A stretch of 20,514 nucleotides of DNA from Pigoraptor vietnamica (lineage: Eukaryota > Opisthokonta > Filasterea). This document shows positions 260-20,396 of the stretch, piece by piece. Numbering within the stretch: position 1 is the stretch's first letter; every line of letters starts with the position of its first letter. A program made the position numbers and the translations under genes. Under the pieces are notes generated by a model. The model searched no databases and was not told the origin of the DNA. It was given only the letters and a program-made list of their open reading frames with translations. The stretch spans positions 1 through 20,514 of the forward strand of contig CALSCQ010000212.1 in NCBI GenBank assembly GCA_943704525.1, read 5' to 3'.

Positions 260-418
260 ATGCGAGTTCTTGCGTTGCTGTTCATTGCTGTCGTCGCTCT
301 CGCAGTGCGCGGCGAGTCTGTTAACCTCGCCTATTCGTCAACGGATCAGCCGGCGCTGAATTGCCACGCACACACAACTCACTCGGACTCAAAAAGCTCC
401 CTCTGCGACCCCAACACC
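260..418 (+). other. In-frame N-terminal extension of GPI resembling a signal peptide
   Basis: An upstream ATG at 260 is in frame with the GPI start at 419, with no stop between them. It would add 53 residues. The first 18 read as a classic signal peptide: a short basic start (MRV), a hydrophobic core (LALLFIAVVALAV), then a polar stretch. The rest is Ser/Thr/His-rich with no recognised domain. The ATG at 260 has a poor context, with C at -3, whereas 419 has A at -3 and G at +4. A secreted form by alternative start is therefore possible but unproven; the stretch may simply be 5' leader. Confidence 0.35.
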
Positions 419-2498
<2,080 letters not shown>

Positions 2499-3079: not shown

Positions 3080-5709
3080 TCATCGAATGGCCACGAGGCC
3101 ATAGCCGCACGCGCCCGAAATTTGGTCGCACTCGAGGCACGCGACAATGACATGAGAGCCCACTTCGGTTGGGTACAGCGGCACCTTCGCGACGGCACTT
3201 GCGCCGGACGCGACAGTGCCAATCCCCACCGCAACTTGCTGTGCGGGGACGAGAATACTGCTGCCCTCCGCATGAATCGCCGCGTTCGTGAGCGGGAACG
3301 GCAGCGCGTTGACGACTTTGACGACCGCCGACGTGCTAGTGCGCGAGACCACGCGCGCAGGACACTCGACGACGACCCTGGGGAGGGCGAGAAGGAACGG
3401 TGTGTCTGTCGCGTGCACGACAGACTCCGGCAAGAGGCTGTTCAGGAGAGAGGGACCGCGCTGTCCGTCGCCGCGCACCGGCGGAAGTAGCGCGCCAAAC
3501 GAGAAGAGCCGCAGGGCACAGCACTCCTTCAAGTGCTGCGCGTAGTCCAACACCTCGACGTCCATGGTCACGGCGCGCGATGAGCCGGGCTTCATGGCGA
3601 CAATCTCCGTCTTCGACTTGATCGTTTCCAGCACGCGGCCGGCGCCCTGATACCTCTCTGCGCACACGGTGAGGGTGACGGCCACGCGCGACGTCTCGGG
3701 GAGAGAGTCGCTCGCGGCTATCTCGAGGCCCACGGAGAACGGGCCGCCAATGGCGAGGTCGGAGCCCACGGACGGCGTGAACGCTATTCCGGAGGACGAC
3801 GGCGCCCCCACGCCCTCCCCTATCGGCGACACAGGGTCACCCTTGTCGCCCCTGTAGTTGGTCGTGAGGTCGAGTTGGGCCGACGCCATCGCCCCGCACA
3901 TCTTCGTCAGGATGAGTGCGCCCGTCTTGTTGCGCGCAATGGCAACGTCGACATACGCGCCTTCCTGCGTGATCGGCGGCGACTCCTCGTTGTCCGAGAG
4001 CGACGGGTTCGGCTGACGGAAGTGCACCGGCGCCGTGATGCCGTGCGCAAAGTACTCTGCGTCCACGCGCACGCGAGAGCCCGTCTTGGTCTTGCCAAGC
4101 TGGCCGAGCGCGCAGTCGCGGACGAGCTGGACGGGCACGGGACCGCGGCACAGGCCACTGGACTTGTCCGACGCCCTCCCCCCGGACGCGGGAAGGGGAT
4201 CGACCGAATTCCATCCGTGATAGTGGTTGCCGGCCGAGTCACGTGTGCGCATGTAACACTCGGCCCAGCAGTGCGACGCGCGGACGCTCGCGGGTCCCTT
4301 CTCGGGAAACCCGCACTGGTCGAGGAGAACGACGGCCGGCTTCGCGCCAGAGGGGTCGCCGACGGGTGCCGACGAGCTGTGCGCAGACTCGTAGCACGTG
4401 ACCATGCGCGCGGGAATTCCGAGGCAGCGCAAGACTGTCACGAGGACGGCCGACGCCACCGCAGAGTTGCCGTAGCAAACGGGCTGCCGGCCACGCCTCA
4501 GCCACGTGCGAAGAATGACCGGCGACCCGTTCCACCGCGTGGGTCCGCGGCGGTCCTCCGCTGTCGTCGAACCGCTCTCAAACTGTGTCGCGGCCATCGA
4601 TCCCATGACAACAAAGTCGCGACTCTTCTTGCGCTCGGCGGCGCGGCGGTCGACGGGCTCGAGCAGCGACGGCCGTCGTATTTCCCCGTTCGAGGATGTC
4701 CGGCGCCCAGCAGGCAGCGCGGGGAGGAGCACGCGGCACGACAGCACGCACCCGTTGATCGCCGCGGAGCTTTCGCTTGCAATAAACGCCGAGACGTGGC
4801 GAACGACGCGCTTTGGGTCCCCGCGGTCTTCCGGCGCGAGGCCGTCGAGAAGCGCAAGCGCAGCCGAGAGACAGTCCGACTCAAACTGGCCGTAGTTCCA
4901 CGGGCGCTCCGTGGGCTTGGATGCAACGCCGTCGTACACGATTCCGTGCGACGCGAGCACGTACTCGTCGCGATCGGTGCGCTCCGACACGTACACAGGG
5001 TCGGCCTCGCACCACGGGTTGAAGAGGACGACGACAGTGGGAGAGGAAAGCAGAATGCGCCCCTTGGACGTCTTGAGAAACGAGGACTGCGAGTCCGTGC
5101 GGCCGAGGCTCGACACGCTGCTCATGCTGCTGCTCACGCGGCGGAGGAGGAACGCAGCTTCTTCGTCGTCATCCGCAAACTCCGAGCTGCGGTCCGAGAG
5201 GTCCGACGCCGAGCGCGATATCTCGTCGTTCTCGGAGGGATTCGTCGACCACTCGCACGCGCCGATGCCGTCCACGTGCAACCGCACAACAAAATCGTAC
5301 TCGCCCACCGCAAAGTTGCTCGGGAGGGTTACGCTCACGTAACACCCGGTCCGTGACGTCCACATGACGCGGGCGCCGTGCTCGGCCTTGCGCGAGGCGG
5401 CGGTCGACTCGTCCGGGTAGCGCGGCAGAGGGGGTATGTTGATGGCCTCCCCGATCTTCTTGCGAAGCGAAGCCGCGTCCTTCACGTCGCCGCCGTACAT
5501 GCCGCTCGTGTCGACGGGGACGAAGGTGAGCGTCACGTACACTCCGTGCGCGGGAATGGGGCGACTCGTGCTAATGCCAAACACAAAGGGAAGGCCACGG
5601 CGAATGACGAGGCGCTCGCCGTAGACGCTCGCGTAACGGCTTGTCACGTGCTGTGTGCGGTTGCGAAGCGCCTGCAGCTGCAGACCTGTGATAGACAGGG
5701 GGCCGTACT
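3080..5709 (-). other. Animal-type transglutaminase fold, nucleophile Cys replaced by Ser
   Basis: All four parts of the animal transglutaminase family are present: the N-terminal Ig-like domain (LVIRRGLPFVF), the core beginning LFNPWCEADPVYV and WNYGQFE, and two C-terminal barrels ending LVAIR. In the core the usual YGQCW reads YGNSA, so the catalytic Cys is Ser (codon TCT, 4463-4465). The His (SHCWAE, 4271-4273), the Asp (WNSVDP, 4199-4201) and the Trp before the active site (RWNGS) are kept, with near-normal spacing of 64 and 24 residues. One base separates TCT from a Cys codon. Loss of the Cys with the fold kept is what erythrocyte band 4.2 shows, so a structural role is inferred. A Ser/acidic insert of about 70 residues interrupts the N-terminal domain. 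Confidence 0.9.
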
Positions 5710-8700
5710 CTGCGCGTGGCGTAACACACACCTGAATCAGCATAGAGGATACAAGGGGTGGCAAACGAGCACATGCGGCCACACAAAAACAGTCGCAGAC
5801 AGCAGCCATCGCTGCCGTCCACGCCGACGTTGTGCGCGCAACAAGACATCACAAACTCACCGTCGCCGTAGATGGACCCGGTGAGCGACGGCGCGTCGGG
5901 GCTCGGCGGTGCCTCAAACAGGTTCACCACGCTCGACTTGACCGGGTCGACGACAATCGTCGGCGCGTTCACCGGCTCCGATTGCGCGAGGCGTTCGGGA
6001 ACGGCCGGTGTCGACGGCAGAGACCACGTGCCAGGAGGGAAGAACTCAAACGACTGGCGAAGGTAGTCAATCACATTCTGCTGCTGCTGTTGGGCGGTGG
6101 GCGCAGCGGGCAGAAGGGCCAGGTCCGCCATCTGCAGCCGCTCGAGCGACGGCGTGCGCGTGCCCGAGCGCCAAGAAGACGATTGCTTGGGATTGACGAC
6201 AATTCCGGCAATGCCCGCAAACAGGCTCGACAGGTTCACGCTCTCCTGACTCGTGCGCCGGTCGGGAGTGCCGGTTGACGACGACATGCGACGCGTCCCG
6301 TCCGCACCCGCGGCCCCAGTCTGCGACGACGACGACGCGCGGCGTCCCTCCACGCCTGCAAGAGGTGCTGCGGGGGCGGACACGGAAAGGCGCCGCACGT
6401 CGTTCGTCGGCGCGGAAGACGAGGAAAGGCGCCGTGCGTCCGGGTGGGGAGAGGTGCTTGACAGCGGCGTTGCGTGTGAGAAGGTCGCCATAAAAGTGGC
6501 GCTCAGGCGCCGCTCCAAGCGACCGCCGGCCACGCCCATGAGCGCAGCTTCGAGCACGTGTGCCCCCGCCGCCGTCCCCTGGATATTTGGGCTCGTTGTA
6601 CCGGACGCGCCCAATGGCCGCCGAGAAGGGCTTTCCATCCCAGAGTCTGCTGCCGACACGGCGGGGCTCAATCCGCGCGCCGCAAGGAGGGCGGGGAGTG
6701 CCTCGTACGACGACGCGAGCGGGGTGCCGCCGTCCAGCGATCTCCGTTCTTGCGTGTGCGCCTGCGGGGCGTGCGCTTGCTGGCTGCTGCTGCTGAGCGG
6801 GATGTCGCTGATCGATGCCCTTCGCCTGTGGGCCACCGAGTTCGGCAGGAGGGGAAGGGGAGACGCGATCGACGACGAGCGCGGCGGCAGCACCTGCTTG
6901 CTGTCGTCGGGAGAGATGACCGGCGCAGACTGCGGGACTGCTTCCAACGGCGCGTTCGCAGCCCCTTGTGCCATCAGCAGAGGGTCGAGAGTAGGCACGG
7001 CGGTCGCACTGGGAACGGACGTCACGCTGTTGCGCCTCGACAGCAGGCGCTGCTGCTGCATAAGCAGCTCCTGCTGGAGTTGCCGCTGTTGATGAGCCTG
7101 CTGCGCCTGCTTCTCAATCTCAAGGCGCGCCTGGATGTCGCTGTAGCTGCCGTCTTCGGGGACCATGTCGATCGGCGGAAATGCGAGGGCGTTCACGCGG
7201 TGGTGCGCGACGGGTACGCCTCCGTTGGCTTGCGACGTGGTCGACCCACCGTCAAGCGGCGACGCGTCCGTTCCCTCCTCTGTGGGGGGTGGCGGCGTCG
7301 CGACCGTCGTTTCGAGCGACACAGCCAGACGCGATGCTTGCGACGCGGGAGTCGTGGTGGGCTCCGGCACCGTTGCAGTCGAGTCCGCTTGCTCCTGCGC
7401 TTCGCCCGCGCGTTCCACCGACGATTCCGCTTGAACAACGGCCGTTTCGGCGCTCTCCACGACAACTTCCGTCGTCCCCTGCGCCTCCTCCTCGGTGCCA
7501 TCCCCCGCGGCGTCCTTCGGTTCGTCTGGGTTCGTGACGACGATGGGCGGCGGCGATTCCGTCGGCGGAGGGACCGTGTCCGCCGACGCCGAACCAATCG
7601 AGTACAGTGACGCTTCGAGCACGTCCAACACTGGCGAGTCGATGCGGTCCGCCATCGTGGCCAATAGGCCCATTGCGACGGACGAGCGGCGGGACATGTT
7701 CGAGTCTGCACTCGACGACGACCTCCTCGATGCGTCGCCTCCGCTGAGGAGATTGACGGACGACGAGCGACGGCCGAGCCCCTTGAATGGGTTGTTGCCG
7801 GAGAGAGGCGTCTGGGGCTGCGTGCCCGGCTGCGCGTGCGCATTGTGCTCCTTGCTGTTGCGGCGCGCGAGGAAGGCCATCGGAGACGCGTCGCTCTTGC
7901 GCCTCTCTGGGGAATCGACGCCGTTCGAGGGCACGGTCTTGCACATAAACGCACCGTCGCCGAGGTGGTACACGCTCATGAGGGACGTGCTGCGCGCCGA
8001 GTTCTTGTCAATCGCCGTCACGGACGACTTGTCCGAGAGGGCGCGATCGAGGGAAGCCACGCTCGCGCGGTCGCTGTCGGAGTCGTTAGAGTCCACGGAC
8101 TCCGCGCCCGACATGTGTCCGGTCATCAGTTGGTGCTTCAGTATGGCCGTGTAAGCCTTCGACGCGTCGTGTGACGTCAGGTCCGATTCGGATGACGTCG
8201 TCGCGGGCGCCTTCACCTTGCCCTTCTTCTTCTTTGCCGTGTCCTCGGTTAAAAGGCCCAGGAGGCCCTTGGAAGGCGACGAGTTGTCCGCCGTGAGGCT
8301 TATGCTCCGTCGCGGCAACGGTGAGTCCACGTCGGGCACAAGCGGCGTAGCCATCGACAGAACAATCGACGGCTTGCGATTGGGCTCGGTCGATATGAAG
8401 AGCGCAGAGTCGCTCGATGCCTTTCCCGTCGTCGACTGCTTGCGAGCGGCGACCGCTCCCTTCGTGAAAGGTGCACCAGCAGCGGTCACGTGCGCGTGCG
8501 CAGCGGAAGCCTCTGCCGCGTTCGTGTCGTCAGCGGCTGGCAGTACCGGACACGGGGGCGGAGGCTGGACGACGTCCCGCAGTTCGCACTCGTTTGTCTC
8601 TCCATCCGTGGCGTTGGTGGCGCACTCTTCGCGCGAAGTGGCTTGCTCGTGGTGAGAGTGGTGATGGTGCGCTCGATACGCATTCGCCTCTGCGCTCTCT

Positions 8701-11700
8701 GCAAGCGCAAAGCTGGCCTCAAAGTGCGGCGGAGGTGTGCCGGGGGGCGCCCGCAGCTGCTGCCTGACCTGCGCGTGCAGCGCACGTCGGCGCTCTTCCT
8801 CTTCCTCGTCCACCTCCCACTCTTCCGAACTCCCACCGCCCACGGCCGTGTCACTCGCCGCCTCGCTCTCGTCGTCGCCGTCCTCACTCGAGGACCCGTA
8901 CAGCTCCGGCGAAGACGGCTCCCCATCCGACGCTTCGCCACCGACAATAGCAAGGCTCTGCAACTCGACGCGCGCGTCGTCGTCCAGCACGCCGTGCAGT
9001 CCGTTGCCGCTCGAGTCGTCCTCCGGGGCATCCGTCCCGAACTTGTACCACGCGCAGAGGCCAATCTCGCGGGCCTTATCAGGGAACAGCGACGCACGCA
9101 TGCCCGCCGCTATCTCCGACTGCGACAGCGCGCGCGACCACAGGCGGACGTCCGCCACCTTTCCGTAGAAGCCGCATGGCATATCCGACGCGTACTCGAG
9201 TCGACCCATGCGAAGCGGCGGCTGCGACTGTCCGTAGGGGTAGAGGGGACCGCCGCGGAAGGGCATGATGTCGTCGAGCTCTCCGTTGATGTACATGCTC
9301 AGCTCGTCGCCGTCGCACACGCACGCAATGTGCGTCCACTCGCGCGCGCGCACACGAACCGACGCGCAGTAGTCGTTATCGACCCAGCCCGTGGCGAAAA
9401 AGTAGAGGCTACCGCGCTTGCCCGCGCAGAGGCAATACCCGTCCAGACCGTTGGACGTTTTCGCAACGACGACAGAGTTGGGTGGCTGGTCGGCGCAGAG
9501 AAAGTACACCCAGCACTCAAGGGTCAGAGCCTTGGTGGGGCGGAGGAGAGGGCTGTCCGGCACTTCGAATCCGGGGTAGCGATCCCAATCCACGATGCAC
9601 AGCGAATTGATGCGCGACGCTGCAAGTGTGAGGACGGTGTGCGTGTGAGAGCGCGCTTCACACACACACACACACACTCTCTCTCTCTCTCTCCATACTC
9701 CACACTTAAAAACACTCTTACACACACTCACACACACACACAAAAAAAAAACACGCACACGCACACACACAACGCATACAAAGTCGTACGCATGGCACGG
9801 GAAACTCACGCTCTTCAATCGGAGCTATAGCCGCGATCCATTCGTCCTCCGGCACGGCGTCCACCGGCGGCTTGATGCTTGCCGGCGCCTCGACCGGCAT
9901 CTGCTGCACGCTCGATCTCACCAGCACCCCCTTCCGCGCCAGGCCCGCTGCCTCCGTCGGTCCACTCGCTGGCAGTGTCCTCGTCGCTCGGGCTCTCGCC
10001 GCGTCCGACATGGCGGGCGTAGTGCCCTGAGGGACTGTCGTCGGCGCCGTCGCTCCCGCTGCCGCTGTGGCCGTGGGAACGCTCGTTGCCGCTGTCGGCG
10101 CTGTGGTCGTCTTCTCCGAGCGGACGAAAGGAATGACGGCCGGTACCAGAGGGCCCATTACGGTCACCCTCGGCCCGGCCAACAGTCTTATCCTTCTCGC
10201 CGTCCGCGGGGGACACTGAAGAGTCGTGCGCACCTCCCATCGGCTCGTCCACGTCCGAGCCGCCGCGGGGCGATGGCGCACGCTGCGGCTGCTTCTTGCG
10301 CGCAGCAGGCGACGTGCGGGACGTTGAGTAGTCGTCGCTCGTGTTCCCGACATCGCTGGTGTCCGAGCTGTACCCGCTCTGCCGCGACGTCGACCGTTCC
10401 TCGGCGCTTTCTGGAGGCAACGAAAACGATACGGCCTTGCGACCCTTCTCGGCGTGCCGCTCGCCCTCCGAATCCGAGCGATTGCCGTCGCGGTTGCCCC
10501 ACTCGTCTCCCGCCGACGACGCCGACAGCTCGAAGATGGTCGGTGCCTCATCGCCAGAGGAAGCGCCGCCCGCGCTGGCACTCGGAACGTAAGGGTCGTC
10601 GTCTTCAGAGTCCGACACGGCGGGCCCGGAGGAAGCGTCGGCGACCGCGCGCTCGCGCTCGCGCTCAATCTCGACCTGAGGGGGAGGGGCGAGGAGGTTG
10701 CGGGCCATCTGAATGCACTCGTGCCCGCGGACCATCTCGCGGCGGATGAGCGAAATGTCGTCCGATTCAATGTCTTCGAGCAGGCGCGCGCCCGCGGGAG
10801 GGCGTCCCGAGGGGGTCAGCGGGTGCACGACAGACCCTGCCACGGCACGCTTGTTTGCCGCGAGGGTGGCGGACGACGCCGTGTACTTTGTGTCGTCGCG
10901 ACGGCGAGAGTACTTGTGGAAGCGGCCCTTCGTCTGGGGAAAAGCATTGCGGAAGGCGATTTGTGAGCAAGCGTCATCGCCACACTATCGGTCTACAGCG
11001 CACTCGGGTCGCGCGCGCACTACGCACACAAAGGAAAAAACGAACACAAATGCACATACCTGCACGGCGAGCTTCTCCAAAAACTTGTTCGCAGCAGCGT
11101 CCGCGCAGTTAAACGAGATCGTGTGCACGGGCGTCGCGCGGCCCCACGTGGCCACCGCGTTCAGAATGTCCTCCGTGGACTGGTCCGGCTGGCCGTCCGT
11201 GAGAAGGTAGACTGCGTCCGCCTCGTCCACATGCAGTGCCATGCGGAGCGCGTCGAGCGTGTTCGTGCTGCCGCCGGCCTCTAGCTTCAGGACCCACTCG
11301 CACGCGTCGGCGACGGACTTGGGTGTCCACGCGACCAGCTTCTCGGACCACGCCTCGACGCGGCCGCTGTAGCGCACGATCGAAAAGGCCGTCCCCGCCG
11401 TCAGCTGCGACTGCACGAGCGACGACAGCTCCGTGCGGAGAACGTCCATGTGCTCCTCCATGGATCCGGACGTGTCCACCACGAAGATCACGTGCCGCTC
11501 GGGGACGGTGCCGAAGATGCGGCGGCTGCCCGATTGGAGCCAGCGCAGGCGCGCGCCGAACCGCCGCAGCTGCCGCTTCACCGCGCGCTCGTACTTGTCC
11601 ACGAGCATCTCGCGCGTGGACGCGTTCCCGCCCTTCAGCTCGGAAAACGTCACGGCGAAGCGGGCGAAGTCGAGGCCCTTGTTCTCGAGGCCGTGCTGCG

Positions 11701-14700
11701 ACAGCCAGTCAATTGACAGCATCGCCTGCTCCTCGTGCGTAAACTGCACGATAGGCTCCGCCTCGTACTTCGACTTGACGCCGCTCGAAGGGGAGGAGGG
11801 ACTCTCGTGCGCGAGCGCGTCGGCCGGCGACGCCGACGCCGACTTGACCTGGCGCGCACGCCGAGTCTTTGTCGTCGTCACGCTGTCCAAGAGACCCCCG
11901 AATGGGGGGGTCGGCTTCTGAGAGCGCTTGCCCGAACTCGACGGCGGGCGCACAGGCGAGGCCCACGTGGGGCCCTGCGCCGACTTCCACTTGCTCTTCG
12001 GCGTTCGCTTCGTCGGTGACGGGCCAAAAGACGCGTCGGCCTCGTGCCGGCTGTTCCCAACGAATGATGCCGGGTCAATGCCGCGCACGCTGCGGCGCGT
12101 GGGGCTCGACGAGCGGTCCGCCGGAGGCTCCGTCGACGACGCTTCCGACGTGCGCGAGGCCACGCGGCGAACCTCGGCGTCGACGTCGCCGTAAACAGAG
12201 TCGAACGACTCGTCGGCGCCCCCGCGAGTCCCTCGGGTGGGAGAAGCGCTGGCGCCGCGCGGTGGGCGCCAAGGAGAAGGAGCGTCGTCGTCAAACTGCG
12301 GGCGAGCGGGGAGCGTGCTGCGAGCGACGTCGCCGTCGGCAATCACCGCAATCGCCGCAATGTTGCGCGCGGCGTCCGCCGTCACGGGCTGCGGAACAGC
12401 CTCGCGGGGGTACACCTCGACACTGCCGACATCGCCGCTGGCGTTGCTCGTTGCGTCGCCACCGCCCTGGCCGGCGTCCGAATGGGAGGTGGACTGTGCG
12501 CCGCCGATGACCGAGAGGAGCTTGCCCGATGCAATCTCCGTCGTGGGGTCCTTGCCGACGGACGTCGCCGCCTTGAGGATTTTCACGATGTGGTCCGTGA
12601 TCTTCGCAGGCAGCTGGAAGAAGTGGGGGACGTCGCGAATGTGCCGGCAGTACTGCGTCCACTCGTGCAGCCTCGGGCGGAACTGCAGCAGCGCCAGTGC
12701 CGCGAAGCGAAACTCCTTCGAGTCGGCGTCCTTCCGCACGGCGTCGAGGAGGTACCGCAGCGCAAACGCGAGAGACGTGGACGCGACGAGGCGGTGGCGG
12801 ATGAGCTGCCCAAACGTCGTCGCGAGGATGGCGAGGCGCGGCTCGCTCTGCCTGTGCATCCAGTGGAAGTAGTCGAAAATGGAGCGCACGAGGCACGCGT
12901 ACATCGCGCGGTCGCGCGCAGAGTCCGAGCGGCGGAGCTGCTGCAGCAGCGCAATCATCTCCTCGACCGACGTCGCCTCGGTGAGAAGCTCCTCAACCTG
13001 CATGCGCCCAATCTCGCCAACCTCGTCGGGGAAGGGGTCAAAGGCCGCCGTGTTCGCAATGTCGCCGGTGCCCATCGAAGCGCCCGCGCTCTGCGGACGC
13101 ACTGGAAGCTGCCGAATGTCGCGCGCGCGAGAGCCCGTCGCGCTCATCGGCCGCTGCGGCTGCGGGGACGCCGACGCCTTCCGTCCGCGAACGGGCGAAG
13201 CGTCCTGCGTCGCGGCCTTCTTCGCCGTCTCGTTGGCCTGCTGGCGCATGCGGCGGAGCTCGTTGTCGGCGCGCAGCTTCGCGCTCTGCTCGGCGTACTG
13301 TCGCGCGCGGTTGATCTCCGCACGGATGAGCGCGACGTCGTCCGATTCGAGGAGGTAGCCGCCGCCCGCAGACTCGCCATGGTAGTGGAAGCGCCCTCCC
13401 GAGATCTCGGCGAGCTTGCGCAGGCCGGCGTTGGTCAGGCCATCCGTGCACCCGTACGACACGGCGTGCACGCGCAGCTTGCGCGCGGCGTCGAGGTGCT
13501 GCGCCCTGCGAAGCTCCTCCACCGCCGCGTCGGGAGCGTGCGCGGGGATGCCGGCGACGACCATGTACAACGCATCGGCGTCGCGGTCGGACAGCGCGAG
13601 GTTCACCGCGTTGATCTGGTTGGGCTGGCCGGCGGGGCGCGTGCCGCAGACCCACGCCCATGCCTTGTCAAGGGCCTCGGGGGTCACCTCGACGAGCGAC
13701 GGCATCCACGACTCGGCGTTCCCGGCGTAACGAATGACGTTGAACTTGCGCTTGTGGGCAATCTGCTCGCCGAAGAGCGTCTTGAGGTGCTGTCTGAATT
13801 GCTCCGTCCTCTGCGCAATGTGGACCGACGCGTCAATGGCGATGATCAGCCTGTCCTCCACGATGGCGCCGAAGGGGAGGCGCGAACCGCTGCGCAGCCA
13901 CGAGATCCTGCGGTCGAAGAGATCGATCGCCTTGGTGAGGCGCTGCTCGTACTCGCGGAGAGCGGCCTGGTCGACGTGTATGTGCTTGATTGTCCCGTCG
14001 TACCATCGAAAGTGCGTCATGTTGCTGCAGATGCGCGCAGACGCCTCCTTCTCCGCCTTCGTCCCCGTCGGCGCCTCAGAGTGATCAAACGCATCCCGCG
14101 CGAGGACGTCGTAGATACCGAGGTGCTGAGACCGCAGGCCGTGCTCCTTCAGCCACTCCTTCGACGCAATGATGGGACCGTCAAAGCGCTCCGCGCGGCG
14201 CTTCTTCGGCTTGGGCGTCTCCGACGGAAGGTCCGCCTCGTCGCCCGCCGCAGAACCGGGCACCTTGGGGCGTCGGCTGCGCCCAGTACCGTACTGGATG
14301 CTGTGCGAGCGCACCTGCCGCACAATTTCCTCGGCGCGGTGCAGTTCCTCGCGCAGCGCGTCGACGTCGTCGCCCTCGCAGAGGCAGATCGACGAGCCGC
14401 GCGAAAGGTCGCGCCACGCGCGGTGGAAGCGGCCACCGCACTCCTCCGCCAGCGCGCGGTACTGCGGGAGGGCCGCGGGGTCGGCGCACTCGAGCATGAC
14501 GCTGTGGATGCGCGTCGTCCTCCCAGCAAGCAGCTGCGAAGCGAGCGCGCACAACACGCCCTTGCGCTGGTTCGCGCGCGTGCCGGCGACCACGTAAATG
14601 TTGTCGGCGTCCTCGTTGGAGAGCGCGAGGCGGAGACCTGCCCACGCGTCGCTGCCGGCACCCGCGATCATGCGCTGTGCCACCGTGTCGCCGGGGGACA

Positions 14701-16911
14701 TCGTGAGGCCCTGCACCCACTCGCGCGCCTCCCCGATGGCGCCCTCTTCGACCGCACACATGGAGGGGCGGAACATGACGGCGCCATGCGGTCCGAACGC
14801 GACGACGTTGAACGCCGCCTTCGGGGAAGCGTCCTTCGACTTGAGGAACTGTTCGAGGAGGAGAGTGGAGAGCGACTCCTTGAGGTACTCGAGACGCGCC
14901 TCGCCGCCCGTCGTGTCGACGGCGATGACGACGCGGGAGCCAGTGATGAGACCGAAGGCGGCGCGCGTGCCCGACGACAGCCACGCGACGCGCCTGCGAT
15001 AGACGCCGATGGCCTTGTTCATGCGCTTCTCATAGTACGTCGCGAGGCTCGGGTCAAAGTGGACGTGGCGCGTGATGGCGTTCTCGCTGTCGCCATCCCC
15101 GAGCACGACGTCCCCGCCGACGACGTGGTTGTGGCGAAAGAGCGACTCGCAGTAGCGCGCGCTCACGTGCTTGTCGATCGACGCGACAAAGCTCTCCTTG
15201 TGGCTGAACCCGGCGGAGAGGAGGTCCGCCGCCGTCAGCTTCTTCGGGCGCAGTCCGTACGTGCGCAGCCACTCGGCCGAGTCGACCCACTCGTGCTCGG
15301 CGGGCGCCTTCACCCCCAGAATGGAAACGCTAGCCTCCGACGGGACTGTTTTGGCAGACGCCAGCTTGATCCCAGAGCCGCCGGCGTCGGACGTGGCGTT
15401 TCCGACGGACGCACCGGCGGACGCGAGCGTGTGGACGAGGGGCTCTGTGCGGCGGAACTTGTGAAGGAGAACCTCCTGGTCCATCTCGGCGCCGAGCAGT
15501 GCGCCGCTGCCTGTGGAGTGTAGAGTGTGCGTGGTTAGCGAAGGCGAGTGAGGGAATACGAGGACGTGTCTCTCAGGGTGGGCCCACAACATGCGACGCT
15601 TCTCAATTGCAAGATATGCAAAGGTCTCGATTCAGAAAAAAAAAGTCGTGAGGGTTCCCCTCCGATAACTCCATAGTGTGCGCAGTAAAAGGATGTCGAG
15701 CGTACCGTGCTGCAGCCGCTTGTGGACCTTGAAAACGGGGTCGTTGTGGCGCGTCGACTGAAATTTGGCGGTGCAGCCTGCGTGCATCGCGTGGGAATAG
15801 CCGTAAGTTCAGTACATAAGTCGCGATGACTAATCGCCCACACAACACGCAAGCGCATGCACGCACGCACATGCACGCACGCACACACACACACACACAC
15901 GCCGCGAGCCACGCCTCGTTTGTCTGTGGGGTGCGGAGCGGCGCGGTGTGTGTGCGGGTGCGGGATACGGTTGAAGACACAAACACACGCACACACACAC
16001 ACACACACACACAGTCTACAATTTGACAGCGCGCGCTTACATGCCAATACGCAACCCGAATAACGCACCTTTGAACGTGCAAGGCTGGTGCTCTTCGCCC
16101 GTTTCCTCGCACGGCTCCGAACCGCAGAGGCACCCGTACAGATAGACTTGGTTCTCGCCTACAAAAAAACAATGCGCAACAAACGTGAGTTTGGCTATTA
16201 ATGCCCAATGCATCTCTCTCCCTCCCTCTCCTGAGTACTCTACATTTAACACAGCCTCAGAGCCTCAACACGACCCAAACAAGCTTGCGATTGTTTGAAA
16301 TCTGTCCAAATCTGACGAGTTACAAGGCTCGTAACCAAGTGAATCATGAAATACAAATCCGCCCCGCACGCTTGCCGACACCCAAGAGAAAGAAGAATAT
16401 ACAAATCCGACCCGCACGCTTGCCAACACCCACCGCTAAGAAGCATTTTGCTGTACGTTTCGTCCTCCTCCGCAAGAAGCTCCGCCGCGGCGTCCACCGT
16501 CGGTTGCGACTCGTCATCACGGGCGAGTGCGTACGTGTCGCCGTTCACAGACACCGTCGCGGGGCGCGTCTGGCCGCTGGGGAACGACCGCCGCTTCTTC
16601 ACCACGACCTTCTTCTGCGTAATGGGCGAATTTGCAATGATGTTGCGCACGCGCCGGTGCAAATCGGCGGCCGGATCTTTAGGCGCATGTGCGCCGCTCC
16701 CCCCACTCGCCGCACTCCCGCGCGCAGAGCCCTCGGTGGGCCGCGACGAACCCGCGCCATCCACGGAATCGCCCTCCTCCGTGGCGTTCACGTCCCCTTC
16801 GGCGGTAATATCGCCCTCAAAATCGGCTTCGTTTCCAGCAAAGTCATAGCTTCCCGACGCATCGTGCGCGTACTCGGCACTTTGCTGCCCGTAATCATAG
16901 TCGTCATCCAT
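3080..16911 (-). CDS. Giant multidomain scaffold: VWA3 units, CNOT1-type MIF4G, LamG, pseudo-transglutaminase
   Basis: One gene of about 4,200 codons. Exons, in transcription order, are 16911-16434, 16158-16069, 15777-15706, 15510-11060, 10933-9810, 9619-5861 and 5709-3080. Intron phases are 1,1,1,0,1,1 and agree at each join. Exon 5 is the exception: it carries one base too many, most simply a fifth G in the C5/G5 run at 9927-9931. Start at 16911 is the first ATG of the open frame (MDDDYDYG); the frame runs upstream without another ATG. Domain order by approximate residue: acidic N-terminus 1-159, Cys/His cluster 169-213, VWA3 units 292-611 and 664-961, MIF4G 1051-1191, third VWA3 unit 1478-1770, Ser/acidic disorder to 2071, LamG 2073-2291, disorder to 3324, transglutaminase 3325-4200. 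No signal peptide or membrane segment is seen, so it is probably intracellular. Two basic nuclear-signal-like patches occur (residues about 100-108 and 645-653). The alternative is two or three adjacent genes, but no ATG-led start or terminator separates the blocks. The weakest link is the join into exon 7. Confidence 0.8.
5861..8960 (-). other. Long disordered region of exon 6
   Basis: Roughly 1,030 residues of Ser, Ala, Pro, Thr and acidic low-complexity sequence on one open frame. Distinct patches are a Glu-rich acidic tract, a His-rich patch (HHHHSHHEQ), many RRxS motifs typical of basophilic kinase sites, a Gln-rich predicted coiled coil (QQAHQQRQLQQELL), and a short poly-Gln run (QQQQQ) near the end. 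It links the LamG and transglutaminase blocks and is probably a flexible, phosphorylated tether. Confidence 0.75.
8961..9619 (-). other. LamG-like (concanavalin A-type) domain
   Basis: About 220 residues at the head of exon 6 show the LamGL jelly-roll signature: LTLECWVYF, an AREWTHIACV strand, the MYINGEL hairpin, GFYGKVADVRLWSRALSQSEI, and a closing GLCAWYKF. The exon starts at acceptor CACTTGCAG and continues the codon left open by exon 5. LamG domains are usually extracellular ligand-binding modules, though this protein has no secretion signal. Cys residues occur but not as an obvious disulfide pattern. Confidence 0.85.
9655..9785. repeat. Compound CA/CT/A microsatellite in giant-gene intron 5
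   Basis: (CA)n, (CT)n, a second (CA)n, an A10 run and more (CA)n lie within the intron 9620-9809. On the sense (minus) strand this reads as GT and GA repeats with a T tract. Confidence 0.9.
9810..10700 (-). other. Disordered Ser/acidic linker with one-base frame slip
   Basis: Low-complexity sequence rich in Ser, Asp, Glu, Gly and Arg, with no fold visible. The frame that follows unit 3 reads well to about 9975, then the neighbouring frame takes over with VEAPASIKPPVDAV and WIAAIAP, which splices cleanly in phase 1 to the LamG exon. No GT-AG pair in the overlap has the length needed to shift by one. A five-G run at 9927-9931 is the likeliest site of an extra base. Confidence 0.6.
10700..11719 (-). 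other. VWA3-type unit 3 with intact MIDAS, split by an intron
   Basis: The third unit starts at IDWLSQHGL and runs WLQSGSRRIFG, then DTSGS (residues 1559-1563), then STNTLDAL and LLTDGQ. The DxSxS, Thr and Asp metal ligands are therefore all present. The unit is cut by the intron 11059-10934 (donor GTATGT, acceptor CCCCAG, phase 0). After splicing it continues TKGRFHKY and ends with the ESDDISLIRREM helix, the same closing motif as in units 1 and 2. That continuity is strong evidence for linking exons 4 and 5. Confidence 0.85.
12578..13000 (-). other. CNOT1-type MIF4G (TTP-binding-like) domain
   Basis: About 140 residues (1051-1191) align with the tristetraprolin-binding MIF4G domain of CNOT1, the scaffold of the CCR4-NOT deadenylase. 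Shared landmarks, in order, are SVEEMIALLQQL, the helix ending IFDYFHW, the segment before LAFALRYLL, AVRK, the helix before RPRLHEW, YCRHI, and PHFFQLP. In CNOT1 the same places read SVDEVLEMLQRF, LFEEYRF, LGLALRYVL, ALRK, KNRLKDY, YCQHL and SHFMQFP. In CNOT1 this domain binds RNA-binding adaptor peptides. Here it is encoded in the same uninterrupted exon as three vWA units, so a chimeric join is hard to invoke. It stands alone, without the CAF1-binding or NOT-box domains. Confidence 0.82.
13268..14161 (-). other. VWA3-type unit 2 (degenerate MIDAS)
   Basis: Same repeat layout as unit 1: KEWLKEHGL, SWLRSGSRLPFG, vWA core, GGRFHYH, then ESDDVALIRAEI. The metal site is DASVH (residues 773-777) and the TDG motif is again lost. 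A Lys/Arg patch (PKKRR, residues about 648-652) lies in the linker between units 1 and 2 and resembles a classical nuclear import signal. A charged, Ala-rich segment follows the unit. Confidence 0.82.
14318..15277 (-). other. VWA3-type unit 1 (degenerate MIDAS)
   Basis: The order of motifs is that of the animal VWA3A/VWA3B proteins: EWLRTYGL, then WLSSGTRAAFG, then a vWA core strand, then GGRFH, then an EGDDVDALREEL helix. The metal-ion adhesion site reads DTTGG instead of DxSxS (residues 412-416), and the later TDG is replaced by VAG. Divalent metal binding is unlikely here. Confidence 0.82.
15706..16158 (-). other. Cys/His cluster, candidate zinc finger (exons 2-3)
   Basis: Two tiny exons (16158-16069 and 15777-15706) encode a dense set of metal-ligand residues: C169, C171, C176, H183, C186, C191, H200, H208 and H213 of the predicted protein. 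The last four ligands fit a C-x4-C-x16-H-x4-H arrangement, similar to but longer than TFIIIA-type fingers. The sequence only assembles when both introns are removed in phase 1, which supports the exon calls. The metal and any nucleic-acid binding are inference. Confidence 0.5.
15841..16012. repeat. Two (CA)n tracts in giant-gene intron 2
   Basis: CA/CATG-rich runs around 15841-15900 and 15980-16012 fill most of the intron 15778-16068. They are GT-rich on the sense strand of the giant gene. A small oppositely oriented GT patch lies between them near 15945. Confidence 0.9.
16351..16432 (-). repeat. Tandem duplication of donor-proximal intron sequence
   Basis: Two 34-base copies (16351-16384 and 16399-16432) with two mismatches are spaced 48 bases apart at the 5' end of giant-gene intron 1. 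The upstream copy abuts the splice donor used (GTGGGT). The downstream copy has TTGGGT at the equivalent place and so lacks a usable GT there. Confidence 0.8.
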
Positions 16912-17783: not shown

Positions 17784-18048
17784 CGAGTCCAAAAGTGCGT
17801 ATGTGCGTGCGTGTGTAATTCACACGAAGCGTGCGTGTGACTAGCTAGGGTGCACTTAGCTCGTACTCTGTCGGATTCTCGCTGGCCAACAACACTACCG
17901 CCGAAGGTTCGGTGGCGTGCCGTCGGTGACGGCCGTTCACGTGCAGACTCCCACGTCGTATCTTGCATAGGTGTGCCTTTCCCCTTCGTGAAGTGCGTGG
18001 CGGCCACCGCACATAAGGGCGCTGATTGCGCCTTGAACTTGGGCGAGA

Positions 18049-18264
18049 ATGAGCGAAATGGACCAGGTCAAGAAGTTTTTGCAGCGCGTGGGACTGCCTC
18101 AGTACGAGAAGATATTCGAGGCGGAAGGATTCGACACACTGTCGGCGGTGGGTAGTTGGTGCGACGCAGTTTGCATTGTACACGCAAGTATGACTGGCGG
18201 TTTGGGAGTCGCGTGTCCCTTTAGTGTGTTGTTGCGTTGTGCACGGGCGATGTGTGCGCACTCC

Positions 18265-18302
<38 letters not shown>

Positions 18303-20284
18303 GCGTTGCGCGTGTGTCCTGTGCTCTGTGTGTGTCATCCATCGCTTGTGTTGTGCCCGCTAAACCTCTTGACTTAACTTTGCGATCGCACAGTTGCAAG
18401 ATGCCACAGAGGACGACCTCCTCGCCATCAGCGTCAAGGCGAGCCACGCCAAGCAGTTAATCAAGTATGCCGCGTCAATCCAACCCGACGGCACTTATGG
18501 CTCGCCGCCGCAGGGCTACGCAAGCTCCCGTGAGTGTTCCCTCTGCTTTGACCCCGTTGCATGTGTGTTTACGTGCCAAAAAGTGATAGTACTCTGCCGC
18601 CGGTGCGGAGAAAAAGACGAGAGAGACGGAGCAAAGTTTGACAGGGTGCGTGTGTGTCGCTCAGCCATGTAGCTCATCGCGTGCTTTCGATCGTTTGTTC
18701 CCTCCAGCGGTCCCCGCTTCCTTCCTCCTCGGTGTCAAGATGGCCGAGTCTGGACCCTTCTCCGGCCGTTCCACACCCACCACGATGTCGCCGTCGACGT
18801 CCGGCGTGCTGAATCCGCGCGGATTTGTGTCCATCAACACTTCAAGTACCTTGTCGCCGCCGAGCCTTGAGACCCCCCGTGCGCCGAAAGAAGTGGCGGT
18901 GCGTCCTGTACTGTGGTGTTACATGTGTTCGCGTTGCCTGTATTACGTGTGTGTGTGTGTGTGTACACTGTGTGCGTGCAGTGTGTGCAATGTGGGTGGG
19001 TGGGGTGGGTGGGTGTGCGTGTGTGCATGTGTGTGTTACGATGTAATGTATGGGCATTCGCTGGGCGAAATACGATGACTGACGCTGCGTGCCGCAGAAT
19101 GTCGTTCTTGTTGGCTATGGGTACGGCGGCCGCACAATTCACGCGCCTCTCATCAAGCTGGCTGAGGGACTAAGGTGACATTTAGACGAAAAATCGCAAG
19201 TGTGCGTGCATTAGCACTCTCCCCGCAAGTGTTCCATACTTACGTGTGTGCTCTCTTAATTTTCGCCAAAGGCTCTACGGCGTCGTTGCGCGTGCGGCGG
19301 AAAACAGGACGCGCGCCGAACAGGACCACAATTGCAAGACGTTCGAGCGCTTTGAGGACGCCCTCGCTGACCCTGAGGTCCACGTGGTCGTCATTGCGAC
19401 ACCGCACGACACCCACTGCGCGATGACCCTTCAGGCGCTCAACGGTGTGTGCGAACTCGCTTGCGTGTGCGTGTGCGTGTGCGTGTGCGTGTGTGAACAT
19501 ATGTGTGAGTGTGAGTGTGTGCGTGTATGTGCGTGTATATGTGAGTTCGTTTTCTTGTGTGTGCTTGCGTGTTTGTTCATTCGCGGTTGCAGAGCAAGCG
19601 TGTGCGTGTGTTGTACATTTCCTCTACTCAACACGCCGTCGCCCTGCGTCCCACAGCCAAGAAGCACGTGGTCGTTGACAAGGTCATGTGCCTCTCCGTC
19701 GACGAGTGCGACAAGATGATTGCCGCCGCGCGCGCCAACAATCGGCTGCTGACGGTCTTTCAGAACCGGCGGTGGGACGGCGACTTTCTAACCGTACGCA
19801 GCCTTCTCGGAAACGAGTCGCTCGGCAAGGTGTGTTGCCGGTAGATGGGATCGAAGTACAGTTAGCTAGCGCACACATCGAAGTACTTGCAGGCGTGATG
19901 CGATCGAGTATGCGTGCGCCTTACCATTTTGTGTAATAGTTTATTTTTACGTGGGTGCGTGTGCGTGCATGACGTGCGTTTAAACGGGCGCTCACCACTC
20001 CTCCCCATCCCTTTCCCTCTCTTTCCCTCTCCCATTCTCTTTTTGCGTTACCGTAGGTGCGATGGATTGAGATGGCGTACCAAAAGTTCGGCCAGTCGAC
20101 AAAGGCGTGGAAGTCGGCGCCCATTGAGAGCGGCGGCGGCACTTTCCTCGATCTCGGCGCCCACTGCGTGGACCAGATGCTTCTCTTGTACCCCAGCAAG
20201 GTCACGAGCGTCTACTGCCGCATGCACTTCGACTTCGGCAGCGACGGAACGGACTCGCACTCGCTGCTCGTGCTGGGATTCGAG
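18049..20284 (+). CDS. SAM domain fused to Gfo/Idh/MocA-type oxidoreductase (3' end outside window)
   Basis: Seven exons chain in consistent phase: 18049-18147, 18394-18529, 18708-18898, 19098-19174, 19272-19444, 19657-19829 and 20057-20284. Exons 1-2 encode a SAM domain (VKKFLQRVGLPQYEKIF, then ATEDDLLAISVKASHAKQL), a helical oligomerisation or interaction module. Exon 3 is a Ser/Thr/Pro-rich linker. Exons 4-7 encode a Gfo/Idh/MocA dehydrogenase: the dinucleotide-binding GYGYGGRTIH, the second-strand VIATPHDTH, LLTVFQNRRWDGDF, and GGGTFLDLGAHCVDQ. The family oxidises or reduces sugars and related compounds with NAD(P). The usual EKP lysine motif reads DKV, with Lys kept and Pro lost. About 360 residues are seen, and the last third of the catalytic domain is missing. 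Start 18049 is the first ATG and has A at -3. A further exon may begin near 20368 but the evidence is weak. Confidence 0.9.
18268..18302 (+). repeat. (GT)n tract in SAM-oxidoreductase intron 1
   Basis: Pure GT run inside the intron 18148-18393, on the sense strand. Confidence 0.95.
18947..18964 (+). repeat. (GT)n tract in SAM-oxidoreductase intron 3
   Basis: GT run inside the intron 18899-19097, sense strand, followed by a GTGGGTGGG-like G-rich stretch near 18990-19015. Confidence 0.9.
19462..19550 (+). repeat. (GTGTGC)n and GT-rich tract in SAM-oxidoreductase intron 5
   Basis: Five hexanucleotide units followed by imperfect GT repeats fill the first half of the intron 19445-19656, on the sense strand. 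Confidence 0.9.
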
Positions 20285-20396
20285 GTGCGTTCTCGCGCGT
20301 GCGTGTGTGTGGCTGCCTGGCTGCATGCGTTTGTTGTACTGCGTCAATGTGGATGTACAGTCATGAGTTCAACGCGACTCTCAGTGCACACTTGAG

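Follow-up and report, generated by a model that had tools for sequence, protein, structure and literature searches.

The human VWA3A and VWA3B proteins consist of three VWA_3 units with DUF4537 as a family feature. The MIDAS motif of VWA units is made up of DxSxS, Thr, and Asp. BEACH proteins such as neurobeachin and WDFY3 are giant cytosolic scaffolds that carry a ConA-like lectin domain. EPB42 (erythrocyte protein band 4.2) has Ala at the transglutaminase catalytic cysteine site. According to a review, the mammalian transglutaminases comprise eight active enzymes and the inactive band 4.2 (PMC6265872), and EPB42 is described as catalytically inactive in two sources (PMC11152450, PMC6265872). 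In CNOT1 of CCR4-NOT, the residues of the human TTP groove are Phe847, Tyr851, Glu893, Phe896, and Tyr900, as given in PMC11939966.

The window, which is the whole 20,514-base contig C80 in a genome of 32.5 Mb and 1,395 contigs, carries features of all these systems. Its predicted domain order is VWA-VWA-CNOT1-VWA-LamG-transglutaminase, a combination for which a search of published papers returned no description. Like the VWA3A/VWA3B-like proteins, the predicted protein has three VWA_3 units with WLxx[HY]GL leads; unlike them, it lacks DUF4537, carries a CNOT1-type domain between its second and third units, and has LamG and transglutaminase domains at the C terminus. It resembles EPB42 in having a transglutaminase layout probably without catalytic cysteine activity (PDB sequence match, E 2.8e-24) and differs in having Ser at the site and in its setting within a giant multidomain protein. 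The TTP-binding-type domain is 34.9% identical to human CNOT1 over 129 residues, whereas its groove residues are replaced and no other CNOT1 domain family occurs in the window frames scanned. These frames also gave no BEACH or WD40 match, in contrast to the BEACH proteins. The features are as follows.

Exon 1, 16434..16911, minus strand: start codon and acidic N terminus, probably disordered; no family.
Exon 2, 16069..16158, minus strand: 30 residues, Cys-rich; GT-AG, in phase; codon score near zero.
Exon 3, 15706..15777, minus strand: 24 residues; GT-AG, in phase; codon score weakly positive.
Exon 4, 11060..15510, minus strand: single open frame with VWA units 1 and 2, the CNOT1-type domain, and most of VWA unit 3.
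Exon 5, 9922..10933, minus strand: end of VWA unit 3 and a disordered linker; alternative end at 9810 after a frame change near 9955-9934.
Exon 6, 5861..9619, minus strand: LamG and a disordered linker of ~1,030 residues with 13 RRx[ST] sites.
Exon 7, 3080..5709, minus strand: Transglut_N, core, and two C-terminal barrels; stop at 3080-3082.
VWA_3 unit 1, 14309..15271, minus strand: WLRTYGL lead; MIDAS lost (DTTGG); boundaries set by the analyst.
VWA_3 unit 2, 13283..14155, minus strand: WLKEHGL lead; MIDAS lost (DASVH).
CNOT1_TTP_bind-type helical (MIF4G/HEAT) domain, 12569..13039, minus strand: between VWA units 2 and 3; TTP groove residues replaced.
VWA_3 unit 3, 10700..11707, minus strand: MIDAS intact (DTSGS, Thr, Asp); completed across intron 4.
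Laminin_G_3 (ConA-like) domain, 9108..9572, minus strand: 79.7 bits in the genome search, 74.5 bits in the Pfam scan.
Ser codon TCT at the catalytic position (TGM2 Cys277), 4463..4465, minus strand: Ser 3703.

With GT donors and AG acceptors throughout, the seven exons can be joined without loss of phase from the ATG at 16911 to the stop at 3080-3082, giving 12,492 nt of coding sequence, 4,163 residues, and a single, terminal stop. The phase-consistent chain of seven exons and the size of about 4,200 residues claimed in the preliminary description are thus borne out. A Pfam scan of the window (E <= 1 per stretch, seven frames) found VWA_3 at 109.7 bits over three stretches, CNOT1_TTP_bind at 128.8, Laminin_G_3 at 74.5, Transglut_core at 39.5, and Transglut_N at 35.1, with Transglut_C at 19.6 bits, below its 26.6 cut-off. 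This profile search recovered the three VWA units, of which unit 1 is weakest, and the LamG domain that the preliminary description had listed. Its CNOT1-type MIF4G domain is also present, with the correction that its place is between VWA units 2 and 3, and the complete transglutaminase fold stands as a layout, with the catalytic cysteine missing and the C-terminal family below cut-off. The intron lengths by exon coordinates are 275, 291, 195, 126, 302, and 151 nt. In the expected frame, most of exons 1 and 5 and the samples from exon 4 give positive codon scores, and introns are mostly negative. The longest stop-to-stop frame in the region has 1,548 codons, compared with a longest of 544 in 60 order-1 Markov simulations. 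Antisense to exon 4 lies a 1,151-codon open frame (12068-15523, plus strand), which is probably a by-product of GC-rich codon use. The introns carry CA/TG-type simple repeats, and 9660-9781 matches dozens of places in the genome at 71-87% identity. The ATG at 16911 has A at -3 and G at +4, and the polar, acidic N terminus that it opens (MDDDYDYGQQ...) suggests a cytosolic protein. Exons 1-3 gave no Pfam family up to E 10 and no match elsewhere in the genome outside the window.

Divergent from the giant gene, 18047-20394 (plus strand) encodes first a SAM domain and then a GFO/IDH/MocA oxidoreductase, which may form one split gene (SAM_2, GFO_IDH_MocA, GFO_IDH_MocA_C3). Convergent with it, 260-2498 (plus strand) holds open frames that begin with a hydrophobic, signal-peptide-like stretch (MRVLALLFIAVVALAVRG) and gave no Pfam match over cut-off in the six frames scanned. 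The contig end (20491-20514) is a run of C that looks like an assembly or sequencing artefact.

The preliminary description had LamG following from exon 5 in matching phase. The in-phase join from 9922 holds, and the codon signal contradicts it, because it ends elsewhere: near 9955-9934 it changes frame, and coding then continues to a GTGAGT donor after 9810. The gain from switching frame (codon scores, ~9955 to 9811) is 60 bits against a maximum of 5.9 in 50 control windows, which were taken from training exons and overlap each other. This conflict matters because LamG and the transglutaminase both hang on the exon 5-6 join. An intron hidden at the frame change was rejected, as the best plain switch scored more than 6 bits above every GT-AG intron of 19-250 nt. 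A one-base assembly error in a GC-rich stretch is likelier than a second gene starting at ATG 9900; exon 5 may also end at the in-phase donor (9922), with the tail scoring well by chance. A single gene across 16911-3080 is the probable arrangement.

The strongest rival, which we consider unlikely, divides the locus into a VWA3-CNOT1 gene that ends within exon 5 or close to it and a LamG-pseudo-transglutaminase gene that starts at ATG 9900 (MPVEAPASIKPPVDAVPEDEW...) and reaches exon 6 through the donor after 9810. The 60-bit preference for the second frame fits this arrangement, as do the position of ATG 9900 in that frame, a donor after 9810 that by position is in phase with exon 6, and a stop of the first frame's own at 9815-9817. 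However, the 130 nt leading up to that stop score as non-coding in the first frame (-2.5, -5.8, and -15.4 bits), and the second frame reaches +8.4 bits as early as 9945-9902, upstream of its proposed ATG (but -7.5 over 9990-9945). This ATG sits in a weak context (C at -3 and at +4), and the arrangement would require two overlapping genes on the same strand, with a promoter in a coding exon of the first. A misjoin of unrelated pieces, or a pseudogene with a frameshift, is very unlikely: the exon 5 conflict and the run of C at the contig end could reflect either, but both sides of the conflict are long open frames with coding codon use, VWA-CNOT1-VWA is contained in one 4.45-kb exon, and no second copy of 9600-10300 was found beyond repeat matches among the 40 of 578 candidates scored. 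The 67 other genome matches of that segment are all confined to a repeat stretch at query positions 48-187.

For the join of exons 6 and 7, 70 donor/acceptor pairs were tried, of which 19 are in phase. Two of these have a consensus-type donor; both use donor 5860 and place the start of exon 7 at 5709 or 5685. An earlier exon 7 start at 5731 had an out-of-phase acceptor and a joined reading with seven stops, and was replaced by these two. The coding signal switches frame between the exons across about 5860-5710, a gap of only ~150 nt. The exon 6 frame stays open until a stop at 5571, within transglutaminase coding sequence, and a transglutaminase gene of its own could therefore exist only if it overlapped this frame.

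A single open frame encodes VWA-VWA-CNOT1-VWA, which makes this fusion independent of splicing except for the end of VWA unit 3 in exon 5. At the exon 4-5 join, KLAVQ runs into TKGRFHKY...LLEDIESDDISLIRREMVRG, which resembles the ends of units 1 and 2 and agrees with the proposal that unit 3 is completed by splicing. A complete MIDAS is present in unit 3 only, and this unit has two PDB relatives (E 2.1e-5 and 0.0035). The genome search for VWA_3 (E <= 0.001) returned 13 places, with window units 2 and 3 among them and unit 1 absent; unit 1 is identified by Pfam (E <= 1) and by blastp alignment with contig C497. That alignment runs through units 1 and 2 (E 2e-69, 28% identity over 690 columns) and is the best blastp match of the window protein among the fetched contigs; the VWA_3 contigs C1080 and C173 were also compared with the window by blastp. 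DUF4537 is absent from the window's Pfam matches and in the genome is present beside the C497 VWA units. The ancestor was therefore probably VWA3A/B-like, given the rank of C497 and the DUF4537 in its adjoining open frame. A tree of VWA units resolved 2 of 8 inner branches and gave no support for unit-by-unit descent. Elsewhere in the genome, a 1,398-codon open frame on contig C331 (L024:3766-7959, minus strand) has VIT, VWA_3, partial 14-3-3, and partial actin matches and is either one protein or a misjoin.

The CNOT1-type domain scored 133.8 bits in the genome search and matched PDB 4j8s (E 6.9e-24). CNOT1_TTP_bind occurs at two places in the genome, the window and a separate CNOT1 on contig C804. 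Pairwise identities are 34.9% over 129 columns for window and human, 32.1% over 190 for window and C804, and 48.8% over 129 for human and C804. In the alignment, the window has V, L, Y, W, and Q at the five groove positions in the order given above, and the C804 protein retains all five residues; the first two positions were aligned via C804, with the human residues there taken from the text of PMC11939966. The CAF1-binding, CN9BD, and Not1 C-terminal domains gave no family at E <= 1 in the seven window frames scanned. No second copy of the fusions was found in the 10-kb stretches around the C804 CNOT1 and the other two genomic transglutaminases, where blastp of the window protein (1e-4) matched nothing but the like domain.

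Laminin_G_3 occurs at 48 places in the genome, and the window domain has no PDB relatives at 0.01. Matches to Integrin_beta (6 rows at E <= 0.001, of which 5 exceed the cut-off) and to cadherin repeats (two contigs, 47 rows) also occur in the genome, which therefore probably belongs to a unicellular relative of animals. RRx[ST] is the kind of site that basophilic (PKA-type) kinases use. The LamG-transglutaminase linker (1,028 residues) contains 13 such sites, against a mean of 0.77 and a maximum of 5 in 2,000 shuffles. Four other linkers or ends lack such sites; 3 fall in the transglutaminase region (0.81 expected), and the total for the protein is 17 (3.9 expected, maximum 12).

Transglut_N, core, and two C-terminal barrels are present in exon 7, the first two above cut-off. 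A three-sequence profile of the window protein and its paralogues on C100 and C1031 aligns from 386 to 824 of its 827 positions with TGM2 248-684; this profile leans on the two paralogues, and the window sequence alone scores 9.3 bits against TGM2 in the C-terminal stretch. TGM2 has RVKYGQCWV where the window has PVCYGNSAV, so that Ser stands at the nucleophile position and QCW becomes NSA. The catalytic His 3767 and Asp 3791 and the oxyanion-side Trp 3680 are retained. The genome has Transglut_core at three places, and the other two (C100 and C1031) retain YGQCW. A transglutaminase fold without its catalytic cysteine, the feature of a Band 4.2-like pseudo-transglutaminase, is therefore found in the window, and transglutaminase activity has probably been lost. 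The TG2-C277S mutant is reported to be inactive in transamidation and still active in non-catalytic roles (PMC3496119). The active-site change suggests that the protein probably holds other proteins together without cross-linking them. Of the rival readings the least probable is a single gene whose transglutaminase domain works as a different enzyme with a Ser nucleophile, to which the retained His, Asp, and Trp would be suited, against which stand the altered neighbours of the nucleophile, the QCW kept by both paralogues, and the loss of transamidation reported for C277S (PMC3496119). EPB42 is present in tetrapods and not in fish according to PMC11152450, so the cysteine loss in the window protein would be a separate event. 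Among viral contigs, five stretches fit a pattern for exon 7 relatives, and tblastn confirmed none.

We modestly favour the interpretation of one gene that encodes a large intracellular VWA3A/B-derived scaffold with a CNOT1-type insertion, ending in a pseudo-transglutaminase. The Cys-less transglutaminase, the rewritten CNOT1 groove, the two MIDAS-less VWA units beside one intact MIDAS, and the kinase-type linker together point to a regulated scaffold. The scaffold role proposed in the preliminary description is strengthened by VWA, CNOT1, and transglutaminase parts that have each lost known functional residues. Points against the one-gene scaffold interpretation are the frame change at the LamG join, the missing DUF4537, the weak scores of exons 2 and 3, and a Ser nucleophile that with His and Asp could in principle have some other activity. 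The starting point would have been a VWA3A/B-like protein with a triple VWA_3 array. A copy of the CNOT1 TTP-binding-type helical domain would then have been inserted between units 2 and 3. The C terminus would have gained a LamG (ConA-like) domain, a long disordered linker, and a transglutaminase of the animal type. In the scaffold, VWA units 1 and 2 would be structural and unit 3 would provide the single metal-dependent binding site. The CNOT1-type module would dock a ligand other than TTP-like peptides, and the transglutaminase, with Ser in place of Cys, would bind partners without cross-linking. A basophilic kinase acting on the RRx[ST] cluster would control docking of the LamG and transglutaminase halves. 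The analysis shows the exons, their phases, the domains, the replaced residues, and the motif cluster; the single transcript, cytosolic location, loss of activity, kinase control, and order of fusions are inferred. More tentatively, the protein could be a giant scaffold of a unicellular relative of animals that fuses enzyme and adaptor folds of separate pathways (VWA3A/B-type, CCR4-NOT CNOT1, and transglutaminase), stripped of their known activities, with a pseudo-transglutaminase outside animals that is independent of band 4.2 and is under basophilic kinase control.

A natural Cys-to-Ser transglutaminase beside two Cys-keeping paralogues in one small genome would allow the non-catalytic role of the fold to be studied in isolation. 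Another case of this kind would be the CNOT1-type docking module, which lies outside CNOT1 and has a rewritten groove. Should the fusion be real, its partners would lead to converging cell processes, namely those of VWA3-type proteins, mRNA decay, and lectin-like binding.
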